Shown piece after piece: positions 26,437 to 52,332 of a DNA stretch of 64,000 nucleotides (position 1 is its first letter; the number at the start of each line of letters is the position of its first letter). A model generated the notes under the pieces. That model was given only the letters and a program-made list of their open reading frames with translations, was not told where the DNA came from and ran no database searches. The translations under genes were made by a program, and so were the position numbers. The stretch is from Thermincola ferriacetica. GTDB taxonomy: Bacteria; Bacillota; Thermincolia; Thermincolales; Thermincolaceae. The stretch covers positions 1-64,000 of the forward strand of contig NZ_LGTE01000008.1 of the NCBI RefSeq assembly GCF_001263415.1, given 5' to 3'.

Positions 26437-26466
26437 CTGTCAACAATATTTAAAATGTGCTACAAT
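26437..26466 (+). promoter_or_regulatory. Candidate sigma-A promoter of the ANTAR regulator gene
   Basis: -35 CTGTCA (26437-26442) and -10 TACAAT (26461-26466), spacing 18. Transcription would begin near 26473, which supports the ATG at 26514 as the true start rather than upstream TTG/ATG codons. Confidence 0.5.
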
Positions 26467-26513
26467 TAGATATTGAAAACCGGAGTAGGGAAATTCAAAT
26501 TGGGGTGGGTGCG

Positions 26514-27107
26514 ATGCACGAACTAAGGATCATGATAGCTGACCCGGATGTAGATTTCTGTAAATACCTCAGGGAAAAACTGGTCCAGGCGGGATACATT
26601 GTCGTAGCCGAAGCTTCCGAAGCTCGCAGCGCCCTCCATATGATTTTCAGCAGCCAGCCTGATGTGGCCCTGATCAATGCCCGTTTTCATGGCCAGGACG
26701 GCTTGGATATTTCCTATTTTCTTGAAGAGCACCGCATAGCCCCAGTAATCTTAATGGCTGACTACGATGATTATGAGATTCTCTCTTATGTGCTGGGACA
26801 TTGGGTTTTTGGCTATTTGGTAAAGCCCATTGATTTTGCGACCCTTATTCCTAACATGGAAATTGCCGTGGCAAATTATCGCAGGCTGCTCAACCTGGAA
26901 GCCGAAATTAAAAAGCTTAAAGAGAACCTGGAGAACCGGAAGTTGATAGAAAAGGCCAAAGGCATCCTGGCCGATATGTTGGGTTTTACCGAGGAAGAAG
27001 CCTTGAAGTTTTTGCAGAAAATTAGTATGGACAAGTGTATGCCTATGAAAAAAGTGGCTTTAAAAATAATTGCCAAATATGGACAGGCCCAAAACGGCAG
27101 GGAGTAA
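26514..27107 (+). CDS. ANTAR-domain RNA-binding response regulator, atypical receiver
   Basis: A 197-residue protein with an N-terminal receiver fold (1-118), a short coiled-coil linker (KLKENLENRKLIEKAKG) and a C-terminal ANTAR domain (about 140-192: LIEKAKGILADMLGFTEEEAL, then KISMDKCMPMKKVALKII). ANTAR proteins bind paired hairpins in leader RNAs and prevent termination. In the receiver, Asn55 (VALINARF) replaces the phospho-acceptor Asp and the acidic pair is D-P-D, so control by phosphorylation is unlikely. The glutamate synthase immediately downstream has a matching leader. Its other targets may include asnB and nifH. Confidence 0.92.
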   Translation: MHELRIMIADPDVDFCKYLREKLVQAGYIVVAEASEARSALHMIFSSQPDVALINARFHGQDGLDISYFLEEHRIAPVILMADYDDYEILSYVLGHWVFGYLVKPIDFATLIPNMEIAVANYRRLLNLEAEIKKLKENLENRKLIEKAKGILADMLGFTEEEALKFLQKISMDKCMPMKKVALKIIAKYGQAQNGRE

Positions 27108-27213: not shown

Positions 27214-27233
27214 GTGAAAGGATATATTAATGA

Positions 27234-27279
27234 TGCAACCGCATATATAGATATAGGTTGCACGGGGCAATGGCGTCCC
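27234..27279 (+). ncRNA. ANTAR-target tandem hairpins (P1/P2) in the glutamate synthase leader
   Basis: P1 is the stem TGCAACC (27234-27240) / GGTTGCA (27256-27262) with a GCA bulge, a TAT/ATA pair and the six-base loop ATAGAT. P2 is the stem GGGGC (27264-27268) / GTCCC (27275-27279) with the loop AATGGC. Both loops have A at position 1 and G at position 4, the recognised ANTAR RNA signature. The 3' arm of P2 is also the 5' arm of the following terminator, so P2 and terminator exclude each other. Confidence 0.82.
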
Positions 27280-27320
27280 ACTGGTCATAGGTTTAAGCTA
27301 TGATCCGTGGGGCGTTTTTT
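27274..27320 (+). terminator. Regulated terminator in the glutamate synthase leader
   Basis: A 17-bp stem CGTCCCACTGGTCATAG (27274-27290) / CTATGATCCGTGGGGCG (27298-27314), with one mismatch and a G-U pair, is followed by TTTTTT. It overlaps P2 of the ANTAR element, as expected for an antitermination switch. Confidence 0.85.
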
Positions 27321-31058: not shown

Positions 31059-31631
31059 GTGCGGGTTTTAATTGCAGATAAAGATGTTTCCTTCGTAAAA
31101 ACCATAAAGCAGTATCTGGTCCCTGCCGGTTACGAGGTAATTGCTGAAACGGCGGACGGGATAACCGCTTTGAAATTAACTCGCACGATGCAGCCAGACC
31201 TGGTAATTCTAGAAGCTTTTCTGCCCGGGATGGATGGTATTGAGGTGGGCAAGATAATAGAAGAAAGCAGGCTTGCTGCGGTAATTGTTGTGGCTACATA
31301 CTCTGAGCTTGATGTAGTCATGGCCAAAGGAGATTGGCCTTTTCCTGTTCTCCCCAAACCTATTGAGCCGGCCGCCCTTATTTCCGTGGTAGATTACGTT
31401 GTGAATTCCTATAGAAAATTAATTTCTTTGGAAAAAGAAGTTCGGTCATTACAAAATGCACTGGCTGCCAGGAAGCTGGTGGAGAAGGCAAAAGGCATTT
31501 TGATGAAGACGCAGGGACTTTCCGAAGAAATGGCTTTTCGTAAGATGCAGCAGTTAAGCATGAAAAAAAGGTTGTCCATGAAAAAAATTGCTGAAGCTAT
31601 TATCCTGGCCCATGAAAGTACGAAAGCGTGA
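31059..31631 (+). CDS. Second ANTAR-domain RNA-binding response regulator, atypical receiver
   Basis: A 190-residue paralogue of the regulator at 26514. The receiver fold (1-118) has Glu52 (LVILEAFLPGMDG) where the phospho-acceptor Asp should be and D-K-D for the acidic pair. The ANTAR domain (about 130-186) has RKLVEKAKGILMKTQGLSEE and KRLSMKKIAEAI. The start is GTG at 31059 with AAGGTGGG upstream. It is monocistronic, ending in a terminator at 31640. With the first ANTAR protein it is a candidate activator of the leaders at 27234, 34595 and 51120; which protein binds which leader cannot be told. Confidence 0.92.
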   Translation: MRVLIADKDVSFVKTIKQYLVPAGYEVIAETADGITALKLTRTMQPDLVILEAFLPGMDGIEVGKIIEESRLAAVIVVATYSELDVVMAKGDWPFPVLPKPIEPAALISVVDYVVNSYRKLISLEKEVRSLQNALAARKLVEKAKGILMKTQGLSEEMAFRKMQQLSMKKRLSMKKIAEAIILAHESTKA

Positions 31632-34594: not shown

Positions 34595-34645
34595 AAAAAC
34601 AAAGAAGAGGCCACAAGGTTTAAAGTTAAACCTTTTCGTGGCCCC
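34595..34645 (-). terminator. Regulated terminator in the asnB leader
   Basis: Read on the minus strand: GGCCAC (34643-34638) with AAGGTTT (34634-34628) pairs with AAACCTT (34621-34615) and GTGGCC (34614-34609), a two-part stem with a small bulge. It is followed by CTTCTTTGTTTTT. The 5' arm overlaps the 3' arm of ANTAR hairpin P2. Confidence 0.82.
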
Positions 34646-34680
34646 TTTGCCAACTGAACTTGATACGCCGTTGTATCAAG
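34639..34680 (-). ncRNA. ANTAR-target tandem hairpins (P1/P2) in the asnB leader
   Basis: On the minus strand, P1 is CTTGATAC-AACGGC-GTATCAAG (34680-34659), an 8-bp perfect stem with a hexaloop. P2 is TGGC-AAAGGG-GCCA (34652-34639). Both loops have A at position 1 and G at position 4. P2 shares GCCA with the terminator that follows. This is the same logic as the glutamate synthase and nif leaders. Confidence 0.82.
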
Positions 34681-40207: not shown

Positions 40208-41233
40208 TTGGACTATATTTTAAACAAGGGATTGGTCAAAGCGTGGCTGCGCAAATTAATTAAACACGGTATTCTCGTAGCTCCTATTCGGTTGGAGGGC
40301 GGGGATATAATTTTCAAAGAAGCTTTTAACCCCGATAATATACTGCTTGAATGCAAAAAGACGTTATATTCCGCCAAGCCCTTTTTTTTGCCGCAGGAGG
40401 AAACCCTGTTCACTTTCAGGGAACGTTCTTTTGGCACAATAAAAGAAGTATTCGATGAGTTCCCCAGAATATTTTTTGGCTTGCGGCCCTGTGATTTGAA
40501 GGCAATTATCCAGGCTGACCGGTTTTTTACGGAAAATTACCAGGATCCTTATTACCGGAAGCGCCGGGAACATACTCTATTGATAGTGGTCGGCTGTAAT
40601 GACCCGGATTCCAACTGTTTTTGCCATGCCATGGGCCTCGGACCCTTTTATCATGAAGGGGCCGACATTTTCCTGGCGGACATGGGGAAGAGCTTTATAG
40701 CCACCCCCATTACTCCTAATGGCATCAATGCCGTAGAAAAATACCGGTATTTTTTCGAAGAAGCCACTGCCGAGCAGCAGGGTGAAAAATCCAGGTATGA
40801 ATTAACCGCTATGCAAAAATTGGTGGCCAATCTGCCTTTGACTGACGTACGGGCCTGTTATTCATTAATAGATGATGAGTTTGTCAGCGGCATAAGCCGC
40901 AAATGCGCCGCCTGTGGCAGTTGTTCTTATGTCTGCCCCATGTGTTTCTGCTACAACGTAGTGGACCGGGAAAACAAGGACCTGGAAGGGAAACGGGTCA
41001 GAACCTGGGATTCCTGCATTTTTGAAGGTTTTACCCGCATGGCGGGACGGCATAACCTGATAAAAAGCCGGCAGGAGCGCCTGAAGAAAAGATTTGCCCA
41101 TAAGCTGAAACAATATCCGGAAACCTACGGTTTCCCAGGTTGTACCGGTTGCGGCCGTTGTTCCCTTACTTGTCTGGGGCACATCAGCATGTTGGATGTT
41201 CTCAAAAAGGTAACGGCGGAGGTGGGGAAATGA
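40208..41233 (+). CDS. 4Fe-4S dicluster electron-transfer subunit of the formate dehydrogenase operon
   Basis: A 341-residue protein of the HydB/AsrA type, with a large N-terminal region (GLRPCDLKAI, VVGCNDPDSNCFCHAMG) and two C-terminal 4Fe-4S clusters (CAACGSCSYVCPMCFC; CTGCGRCSLTC). It probably relays electrons between the selenoprotein and the flavin subunit. The start is TTG 40208, one base after the fdhA stop, with GGGGGTGG upstream; it overlaps the next gene by four bases (ATGA). Confidence 0.88.
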   Translation: MDYILNKGLVKAWLRKLIKHGILVAPIRLEGGDIIFKEAFNPDNILLECKKTLYSAKPFFLPQEETLFTFRERSFGTIKEVFDEFPRIFFGLRPCDLKAIIQADRFFTENYQDPYYRKRREHTLLIVVGCNDPDSNCFCHAMGLGPFYHEGADIFLADMGKSFIATPITPNGINAVEKYRYFFEEATAEQQGEKSRYELTAMQKLVANLPLTDVRACYSLIDDEFVSGISRKCAACGSCSYVCPMCFCYNVVDRENKDLEGKRVRTWDSCIFEGFTRMAGRHNLIKSRQERLKKRFAHKLKQYPETYGFPGCTGCGRCSLTCLGHISMLDVLKKVTAEVGK

Positions 41234-47269: not shown

Positions 47270-47385
47270 GCCTAACATAAAGCCGTGTTTCCGCAGTTGA
47301 GCATGCAAAAACACCGGCAAAGCACTGGCACTGCCGGCGTTAAACCGTTACTTAATATGCTCAATTGCGGCAACACATGTTGGAC
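47270..47385 (+). repeat. attC-like imperfect palindrome, full copy
   Basis: A 116-bp palindrome starting GCCTAAC (47270-47276) and ending GTTGGAC (47379-47385), matching the integron core patterns RYYYAAC and GTTRRRY. Nested arms are CCGCAGTTGAGCATG (47291-47305) / ATGCTCAATTGCGG (47357-47370), GTGTT / AACAC, and an inner AACACCGGCA / TGCCGGCGTT. It lies 31 bp after the last small gene on the plus strand. It is the best attC candidate in the window. Confidence 0.55.
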
Positions 47386-47411
47386 GAAGCCGCAGCATCG
47401 AAGCTGTACGA

Positions 47412-47500
47412 CACAACAGCTCCGCTTCGCTCCGACCCAACTTGTCCCGTCCTCGGCTGCCACGGTTTTTGCAGTTACCTGGCAAAAATCGCGCCACCAA
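47412..47500 (+). repeat. Repeat family C, copy
   Basis: ACAGCTCCGCTTCGCTCCGA, then CAACTTGTCCCGTCCTCGGC and GTTACCTGGCAAAAATCGC, closely matches copies at 43828 and 50294. A family D copy follows at 47717-47741. Confidence 0.6.
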
Positions 47501-47741
47501 GGGGGTAGGGGCCAGGGCTACTACTACGACCTGCCACGCCGCTCATTTGGTACCACCGGCCAGGCGGCACATTGGGAAAAGGCCGCCGCGTGCCTGGCCG
47601 ATGGGCCGTTCCTACTCAACAAAGCAATAAAGCCGACTCAAATGAGCGGCTTTGCAGAATGGCCGACTAACGGCGTTCTAAACGACAGTTTTGGTGTCAC
47701 GATTTTTGCGGACCAGGTGCAAAAACCGCGCCGGTCGTGCG

Positions 47742-48333
47742 GGGAAAGACTAAAGAAATTCCGGCTGGAGTTAGCAGAAGAAAAGACCCGGATAATCCGG
47801 TTCACCCGATTTCGCAAGGAAGAAAACCAAAGCTTCGAGTTCTTGGGCTTCGAATACCGATGGGGAACGTCACGACAGGGGAAAGACATAATTAAGAGGA
47901 GAACCTCCGGGAAGAAAGTTCGGAAATCCCTGCAGGCATTCAAAGAATGGTGCCGGGAGAACCGGAACAACCGGCTATTAAAGCTATTCGGGCAATTAAA
48001 TCCGAAACTTCGAGGCTATCACAACTACTATAGGATTATCGGCAACTATGAAGGAATTAACGAGTTCTACCAAAATGCCGTAAGAATCCTATATAAATGG
48101 CTAAATCGAAGGAGCCGAAGGCGGAGCTTCAACTGGATGGAATTTCGGAAAACCCTGGACAGATACAAAATATTGCGGCCTCGAATAATGGAGAGTCGTA
48201 ACTGCCAGTTAGAACTTGAATTTGATTTTGTCTGATTACGGAAGTGAGTATTACTGAAGAGCCCGGTGCGGTAGTTCCGCACGCCGGGATCTGTGCGGGG
48301 GTTGGCGGGTAACCGGCAGTCCTACCGTGACGG
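47742..48333 (+). mobile_element. 3' fragment of a group II intron
   Basis: It contains the end of an intron-encoded reverse transcriptase and the catalytic RNA 3' end. Domain V is at 48259-48291 (GAGCCCGGTGCGG, then TTCCGCACGCCGGGATC; AGC triad near its start), followed by a domain VI-like segment to about 48330. The 5' RNA and most of the enzyme are missing. A second 3' remnant is at 49579-49633. Confidence 0.8.
47745..48235 (+). pseudogene. Truncated group II intron reverse transcriptase/maturase
   Basis: The last ~163 codons of a maturase: ERLKKFRLELAEEKTRIIRF, then FEFLGFEYRWGTS, and the X domain (LRGYHNYYRIIGNYEGINEF). The catalytic reverse transcriptase core (YADD) is absent. The reading frame stays open upstream into repeat sequences, which is not coding. 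The intron is therefore immobile by itself. Confidence 0.85.
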
Positions 48334-50520: not shown

Positions 50521-50829
50521 TTAGCTGATTCCTGTAGTACCCTTGTAACTGTGTGAGTGAGGGGTACTTCCACTAATTGAGGTTTCTCCTCCAAAATTAT
50601 GATAATGACCTCCCTCGGGAAGTTCGATGGAAGTACCAGATATTCCAGAGACTATATGGGTGTGGCCATCATCATAGGTAGTAACAGTATAGTATCTGTG
50701 TGAATGAGGAACTTCACTTGGAGCTGGGTCTGTAAATCCTGAGTACCTGTGACTATGGTTTAAATTTACTGAAGTTACCCCTGCAAATTTATGTTGATGT
50801 GAAGGTCCATAATTGTTAACATTATTCAT
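50521..50829 (-). CDS. YmaF-family His-rich protein
   Basis: A 102-residue protein with repeated H-S-H-R-Y and HTH/HYH motifs (NLNHSHRYSGFTDPAPSEVP, HSHRYYTVTTYDDGHTH). This is the YmaF pattern. A role in metal binding or spores has been suggested for the family by composition, not established here. The ATG at 50829 has GGAGCTGATGGG upstream. Confidence 0.75.
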   Translation of the reverse strand: MNNVNNYGPSHQHKFAGVTSVNLNHSHRYSGFTDPAPSEVPHSHRYYTVTTYDDGHTHIVSGISGTSIELPEGGHYHNFGGETSISGSTPHSHSYKGTTGIS

Positions 50830-51071
50830 CCCATCAGCTCCTTTCGTCGTCAATCTAGTATATGTATAAAGCACTTTTATGGAGACATAATTAAAAGCAT
50901 ATTTTTAAAAATATTATTTTCGCCAAGTCTTTGATTTTTCTCTTCTAAAAAATGTAAAAAAGTTATTTATGATTTTTACTCTTCAAGCAATATTTCCAAC
51001 TACCAATTCAACTTTTGATAAACGGATGTTATTTTTCTATTTTGCTTAAACACAGAAATTTTAAATTCCTA

Positions 51072-51100
51072 TTGACAATTTAATTCATGCCAATTATACT
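51072..51100 (+). promoter_or_regulatory. Sigma-A-type promoter of the nif operon
   Basis: -35 TTGACA (51072-51077), 17-bp spacing, -10 TATACT (51095-51100). Transcription would start about 51107, 13 bases before the first ANTAR hairpin. No sigma-54 signature is seen. Confidence 0.8.
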
Positions 51101-51119
51101 ATCACTATAAACCATAACC

Positions 51120-51153
51120 GATACACAGTTGTATCAACTGAGCAATGATGCTT
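51120..51153 (+). ncRNA. ANTAR-target hairpins, module 1 of the nif leader
   Basis: P1 is GATAC-ACAGTT-GTATC (51120-51135); P2 is GAGC-AATGAT-GCTT (51140-51153). Both hexaloops have A at position 1 and G at position 4. The 3' arm of P2 is the start of the terminator 51150-51176. Confidence 0.8.
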
Positions 51154-51176
51154 TCCGAGGCCGGAAAGCATTTTTT
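51150..51176 (+). terminator. Regulated terminator 1 of the nif leader
   Basis: GCTTTCCG (51150-51157) / CGGAAAGC (51162-51169), loop AGGC, then TTTTTT at 51171-51176. It overlaps P2 of module 1. Confidence 0.85.
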
Positions 51177-51265
51177 GTTTATTTAAAACGAAATGAATTA
51201 GTTTTATGTTATGATAAAATTAAATAAAGGATACTTCATGATTTCTGCAAAACACTGTTGTTAGA

Positions 51266-51295
51266 GTACTTAGATGTACATGGGCAGAGGGGCCT
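51266..51295 (+). ncRNA. ANTAR-target hairpins, module 2 of the nif leader
   Basis: P1 is GTAC-TTAGAT-GTAC (51266-51279); P2 is GGGC-AGAGGG-GCCT (51282-51295). G is at position 4 of both loops; A is at position 1 in P2 but T in P1, a departure from the consensus. P2's 3' arm overlaps the next terminator. Confidence 0.68.
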
Positions 51296-51335
51296 TTTGG
51301 CATAATTTCCGGTTTGGAAGCCAAAGGGCCTTTTT
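51291..51335 (+). terminator. Regulated terminator 2 of the nif leader
   Basis: GGCCTTTTGGC (51291-51301) / GCCAAAGGGCC (51320-51330), with an inner TTCC/GGAA stem, then TTTTT at 51331-51335. Confidence 0.82.
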
Positions 51336-51365
51336 GTTTAATTCTACGGCGATTGTTCAGGCGAA

Positions 51366-51402
51366 GGCGCCAGGGTTAACTCACTTACCCCGGCGCCTTT
51401 TT
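51366..51402 (+). terminator. Third terminator of the nif leader
   Basis: GGCGCC-A-GGGT (51366-51376) / ACCC-C-GGCGCC (51387-51397), followed by TTTTT. A candidate competing hairpin GGC-GAAGGC-GCC (51360-51371) overlaps its 5' arm, but that loop starts with G, so an ANTAR role is uncertain here. Confidence 0.75.
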
Positions 51403-51456
51403 GTATACATCTGTGGATCTTCCCAAGGGAGGTGAACAGCTAAAAATAATAGGTAG

Positions 51457-52332
<876 letters not shown>

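Follow-up and report, generated by a model that had tools for sequence, protein, structure and literature searches.

Serial ANTAR-type modules in the nif operon leader of Thermincola ferriacetica, a probable transcription attenuator

Layout of the nif leader

We analyzed the region upstream of nifH in the window, a 64,000-nucleotide stretch of DNA from Thermincola ferriacetica (contig NZ_LGTE01000008.1, positions 1 to 64,000). The nifH gene is followed by nifI1, nifI2, nifD and further nif ORFs. On the opposite strand, a YmaF family gene (50521–50874) precedes the leader, which comprises approximately 400 untranslated bases between the promoter and nifH and contains two P1/P2 hairpin modules and three intrinsic terminators (Table 1). 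A TTGACA-17 promoter was also read by eye ahead of module 1 in the relatives L010 and L012. A scan for sigma-54 (−24/−12) promoters gave matches at chance level, none of which was convincing in the nif leader.

Table 1. Features of the nif leader and ANTAR-related features of the same genome (window positions unless C8 is given; loops in square brackets).
Feature	Position	Strand	Description
nif promoter	51072–51100	+	sigma-70/A type, TTGACA-N17-TATACT; 11 of 12 consensus matches; start expected near 51107
Module 1 P1	51120–51135	+	GATAC[ACAGTT]GTATC; A1 and G4
Module 1 P2	51140–51153	+	GAGC[AATGAT]GCTT; A1 and G4; 3′ arm common to terminator 1; −3.1 kcal/mol
Intrinsic terminator 1	51148–51176	+	arms ATGCTTTCCG/CGGAAAGCAT, then T6; −15.4 kcal/mol
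Alternative weak P1, module 2	51251–51262	+	AAC[ACTGTT]GTT; canonical A1/G4 loop, 3 pairs
Module 2 P1	51266–51279	+	GTAC[TTAGAT]GTAC; U1 and G4
Module 2 P2	51282–51295	+	GGGC[AGAGGG]GCCT; A1 and G4; 3′ arm common to terminator 2; −4.3 kcal/mol
Intrinsic terminator 2	51290–51335	+	arms GGGCCTTTTGGC/GCCAAAGGGCC, then T5; −23.5 kcal/mol
P2-like hairpin at terminator 3	51360–51371	+	GGC[GAAGGC]GCC; G1 and G4
Intrinsic terminator 3	51364–51402	+	−21.1 kcal/mol
nifH	51514–52332	+	ATG at 51514 preceded by AGGAGG; in-frame ATG also at 51466
ANTAR response regulator 1	26457–27107	+	N in place of the phospho-Asp; several residues that contact RNA in EutV are missing
ANTAR response regulator 2	31059–31631	+	phospho-Asp replaced by E
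Third ANTAR gene	C8:69465, outside the window		between PII and glutamine synthetase genes; phospho-Asp replaced by E
Single module, glutamate-synthase-domain ORF 27366	27229–27320	+	found by pattern scanner, below the covariance-model lists; P1 GCAACC..AT[ATAGAT]AT..GGTTGC, P2 GGGGC[AATGGC]GTCCC, then terminator
Single module, asnB leader	34600–34680	−	found by scanner, R1 and R2; P1 CTTGATAC[AACGGC]GTATCAAG, P2 TGGC[AAAGGG]GCCA; terminator present
amtB1 leader, two serial modules	C8:64656–64800 (L004:4656–4800)		second module with loop ATGGAA
amtB2 leader, two serial modules	C8:66754–66900 (L004:6754–6900)		second module with loop AATGGT
Module ahead of ANTAR gene C8:69465	C8:69340–69425 (L004:9340–9425)

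A preliminary description of this DNA had placed the TTGACA-N17-TATACT promoter, the hairpin pairs at 51120–51153 and 51266–51295 with their four loop sequences, and a third terminator after module 2, and all of these proved correct. It had also stated that the 3′ arm of P2 is shared with the 5′ arm of a terminator, which holds in both modules, and the two states are mutually exclusive. When the terminator and P2 states were compared by folding, as it had proposed, the terminator was much stronger in every module (−15 to −28 kcal/mol, against −1.6 to −6.7 kcal/mol for P2), and P1 was compatible with the terminator. Since the terminators are far stronger than P2, termination is expected by default, and a protein would be needed to hold P2. 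The description had further named A1 and G4 as the loop rule of hairpins bound by ANTAR proteins. Three of the four loops follow this rule, and that of the P1 of module 2, UUAGAU, keeps G4 but carries U1; G1 and Y1 loop variants occur in relatives too.

The fold of the leader lay 9 standard deviations below shuffles. Dinucleotide shuffles (n = 1000) contained zero modules scoring at least 25, compared with two in the real leader, of which module 2 was scored through the alternative P1 at 51251–51262 because the scan demanded A1. In module 1, P1 and P2 are joined by the 4-nt linker AACT; its P1 is identical in L005 and L088, and carries the loops GCAGCT in L012 and GCGGTT in L010.

Covariance models and the leaders of relatives

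Relatives carrying nifH were fetched and their leaders read, and two covariance models were built. R1 was made from 24 modules in nif leaders of other lineages, with named records mostly from Desulfotomaculum-like genera, and its seed contains no sequence from this genome, its close relatives or the rest of its order. R2 was built from 37 modules, including the window sequences of this genome. A search with an ANTAR-RNA covariance model had been suggested in the preliminary description, and the independent R1 matched both modules of the window (module 1, 24.1 bits; module 2, 15.8 bits). In the P1/P2 stems, 34 cells had changed on both sides, compared with 12.9 in shuffles, and 90.8% of cells were paired, although the partly pairing-based choice of seed hairpins biases these values towards structure. 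The pairing was lost when stem partners were slid.

The serial layout recurs in relatives. Three R1 modules were found in the nif leaders of L006, L009, L013, L015 and L016, and two in those of L005, L007, L008, L011, L012, L018, L021 and L022; most of these relatives had supplied R1 seeds, whereas L005, L012 and L013 had not. A scanner that uses no model found modules in 11 of 18 nearer-relative leaders, where shuffles predicted 0.05, and in 6 of 62 more distant ones, where shuffles predicted 0. When the leader was searched within its own family, this genome alone was returned. Among 149 genomes of the phylum, an ANTAR protein was encoded in 17 of the 18 with an R1 match, as against 59 of the 131 without one (Fisher 4e-5, with the relatedness of the genomes ignored).

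For module 2, two hairpins compete as P1. R2, run directly on the window, found the module at 28.4 bits with GTAC[TTAGAT]GTAC, which it favors over AAC[ACTGTT]GTT at 51251 (5.4 bits), and GTAC[YNNGNT]GTAC is found at the corresponding position in L005, L012 and L088. The linker to P2 would be AT, only 2 nt, with the former and 19 nt with the latter. P1–P2 linkers in close relatives measure 4–5 nt; in the Enterococcus faecalis eut leaders the functional range is 5–12 nt, and induction by EutV dropped drastically once the linker of eutP was shortened to 3 nt, as described in the text of PMC3369931. A hairpin similar to the alternative, AC[ATTGTT]GT, precedes module 2 in L005 and L012 but not in L088. 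The R1 match in L005 and L012 covers this upstream hairpin and not the GTAC-type P1, so that either hairpin may serve as P1 in module 2.

The third terminator differs from the other two. No full P1 was found for it in the window, L005 or L088, and R2 scored it at only 8.4 bits; the loops AAAGGC (L005) and AAGGGT (L088) occupy the place of its P2-like hairpin. Judged from sequence, it amounts to no more than half of an ANTAR module. Of the up to three serial checkpoints proposed earlier, two modules thus stand, whereas the third lacks a P1.

As a separate observation, L020 carries four serial terminators approximately 400 bases upstream of nifH, with at least three P2-like hexaloops (AATGAA, AAAGAG and AATGAG). 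R1 gave no match on this leader, which may represent a P1-poor variant.

ANTAR-type leaders and proteins of the same genome

ANTAR-type modules also precede other nitrogen genes in this genome. The amtB1 and amtB2 leaders each contain two, the second having an imperfect P1 stem with a U-U mismatch and an A1/G4 loop, and a single module precedes each of glnA2, asnB, the glutamate-synthase-like gene and the ANTAR gene at C8:69465. R1 matched the leaders of amtB1, amtB2, asnB and an ANTAR gene. Over the whole genome (3.18 Mb), the top four R1 matches were the ANTAR gene, amtB1, asnB and nif module 1, all on contig C8, and matches five and six were at noise level. Similarly, the top six genome-wide matches of R2 all lay at nitrogen genes on C8, the seventh (E 0.47) being noise. 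Nif module 2 and other weaker modules were missed in these genome-wide searches because only a limited candidate set was scored. One R2 match, at 40717 on the minus strand, was set aside since it lies antisense within an oxidoreductase ORF. The module ahead of the ANTAR gene C8:69465 suggests that this gene is autoregulated. Model matches just upstream of ANTAR genes were seen in several class relatives as well.

The genome contains three ANTAR genes, all on contig C8. The two named earlier, at 26514 and 31059, are both present; the third and best-preserved, C8:69465, lay beyond the window. All three proteins have a receiver domain, and none of the three has the phospho-Asp, as read from alignments to EutV and Rv1626. 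Among 27 ANTAR proteins (3 from this genome and 24 from class relatives), D is present in 14 and absent from 13, and the glnA1-adjacent ANTAR orthologues of relatives carry D. A search of the genome, which is 99.9% complete, for HisKA_2 (PF07568), which we take to be the partner kinase type of EutVW-like systems, returned zero matches, whereas control genomes matched. EutW-like phosphorylation is therefore improbable, and aspartyl phosphorylation is unlikely to be the activating signal; likewise, the known route of EutV activation is not directly applicable to proteins that lack the phospho-Asp.

EutV contacts RNA through R142, K143, K147, E160, Y164, M172, N173 and R175 (PMC8934654). As mapped from the alignments, C8:69465 keeps nearly all of the EutV contact residues, with F for Y164 and S for R177. 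The protein at 31059 keeps fewer of them and has K for N173; in that at 26457, Y164, N173, R175 and R177 are replaced by L, D, C and P. Because the contacts are best kept in C8:69465, gel shifts using just the two window proteins might miss the main regulator.

Proposed mechanism and its alternatives

The covariance model, the covariation, the leaders of relatives and the same-genome regulon give good support to two ANTAR-type modules in series on the nif operon. We consider it likely, with a probability of roughly 0.85, that the leader from 51107 to 51513 acts as a serial ANTAR-type transcription attenuator. Weighing against this reading are the U1 loop and 2-nt linker of the P1 of module 2, the missing P1 of terminator 3, the absent phospho-Asp of the ANTAR proteins and the lack of a matching Rfam family. 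In the EutV model, P1 recruits a dimer, which then passes to P2 (PMC8934654). By analogy, RNA polymerase would start at the housekeeping promoter and would, by default, halt in vivo at terminator 1, 2 or 3. An active ANTAR dimer recruited by the P1 of module 1 would hold P2 and prevent terminator 1, and a like event at module 2 would prevent terminator 2, giving two events before nifH. Terminator 3 would be either a partial module, with its P2-like hairpin alone, or a constitutive brake. The need for at least two independent antitermination events could lower leakage and make the nif operon, which is costly, respond more steeply to a presumed nitrogen signal. Control by these ANTAR proteins probably extends to amtB1, amtB2, glnA2, asnB and the glutamate-synthase-like gene, as well as to the ANTAR gene itself. 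Our best guess for the signal is either PII or glutamine synthetase, acting as a partner protein, or else a bound ligand; the partner idea comes from gene order, with PII proteins and glutamine synthetases encoded at C8:66336–73213, beside one of the ANTAR genes.

Other readings of the leader were weighed against this serial attenuator. The modules may be read by different ANTAR paralogues, one for the A1-type and one for the U1-type P1, which would form an AND gate for two signals. The genome does encode three diverged ANTAR proteins, and the U1 class recurs as TTAGAT here, TCGGGT in L005, TTTGAT in L088 and TAAGAT ahead of amtB2. However, relatives mix A1, G1 and U1 loops too, so the variants may simply be tolerated, and we hold this reading to be possible but unlikely. 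An extended form, in which the checkpoints are read by different non-phosphorylatable paralogues that are gated by contact with PII or glutamine synthetase, is speculative and appears quite improbable; if it were true, nif transcription would need several agreeing signals of nitrogen starvation. A rather doubtful reading, which we would place between these two in likelihood, is that module 1 alone is regulated, with module 2 and terminator 3 left as decayed copies that serve as constitutive brakes. The low R1 score of module 2, the variation of its P1 among relatives and the missing P1 of terminator 3 fit this view. On the other hand, each of the four class relatives whose leader could be read retains the P2 of module 2 together with the G4 of its hexaloop, relatives outside the class still have complete second and third modules, and two unregulated terminators would almost silence nif.

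It is very improbable that the leader works through another kind of attenuation (leader peptide, T-box or riboswitch) or merely insulates nif from upstream transcription, even though three serial terminators and small ORFs in the leader could be so explained. Against other attenuation, an Rfam search at gathering and E-value thresholds gave no relevant family match to the leader, and separate lineages conserve the P1/P2 pattern. The small ORFs cross terminator stems with no evident ribosome site, and none was convincing as a leader peptide. As for insulation, the YmaF family gene points the opposite way, and neither a coding gene nor a same-strand upstream gene that the terminators could serve was found between the promoter and nifH.

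The serial attenuator resembles the EutV-responsive dual-hexaloop antiterminators in the leaders of the E. faecalis eut operon, as described in the text of PMC3369931 and in PMC8934654, in its two small hexaloop hairpins with conserved G4, its AC/GU pairs closing P1, its overlap of P2 with an intrinsic terminator and its response-regulator ANTAR proteins. It differs from them in having two serial modules before one gene with a third terminator, a P1 with U1, ANTAR proteins without the phospho-Asp and no HisKA_2 kinase found. In NasS-NasT of Paracoccus, a receiver-like ANTAR protein is likewise tied to nitrogen genes, and NasT is controlled by its partner NasS, not by any shown phosphorylation (PMC3795266). 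NasS, however, senses nitrate, whereas a PII or glutamine synthetase partner is a guess here.

That ANTAR elements occur on nitrogenase genes, and more than once per unit, is already known from the predictions of Ramesh et al. 2012 (PMC3369931). As given in the text of that paper, these include nitrogenase units of Pelobacter carbinolicus, and 13 elements in six transcription units of Desulfotomaculum acetoxidans; since the elements outnumber the units, several must share a unit. The regulon here is like those two in covering nitrogen genes including nitrogenase, with multiple elements per unit; theirs are presented there as lists from model searches, whereas the present analysis describes the serial nifH order, the variant loops and the state of the receivers for this lineage. 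Supplementary tables of that paper aside, we found nothing beyond it in the literature on ANTAR and nif. What appears new from our sequence comparisons is the serial nifH order conserved in the lineage, the U1 and G1 loops, the incomplete module at terminator 3, a map of the regulon and the receivers' loss of the phospho-Asp. The U1 and G1 variants would extend the loop rule, and the locus offers a natural case for measuring what serial attenuators contribute to leakage and steepness. To our knowledge, the route from nitrogen status to nif is poorly known in anaerobic Firmicutes with a housekeeping nif promoter. This locus would provide a compact, testable answer, namely serial RNA attenuation over a whole nitrogen regulon by ANTAR regulators whose receivers do not allow the usual phosphorylation.

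Two further features were observed near nifH. A GACGCCGA motif lies at 51468–51475 of the window and at L004:4862–4869, just ahead of the nifH and amtB1 starts, and its occurrence near nifH and amtB starts was within chance frequency across the window; it is also present at recurrent positions in the nif leaders of L005 and L010. Finally, the ORF at 47285–48235, 3 kb upstream of nifH, resembles a group II intron maturase with a GIIM domain.
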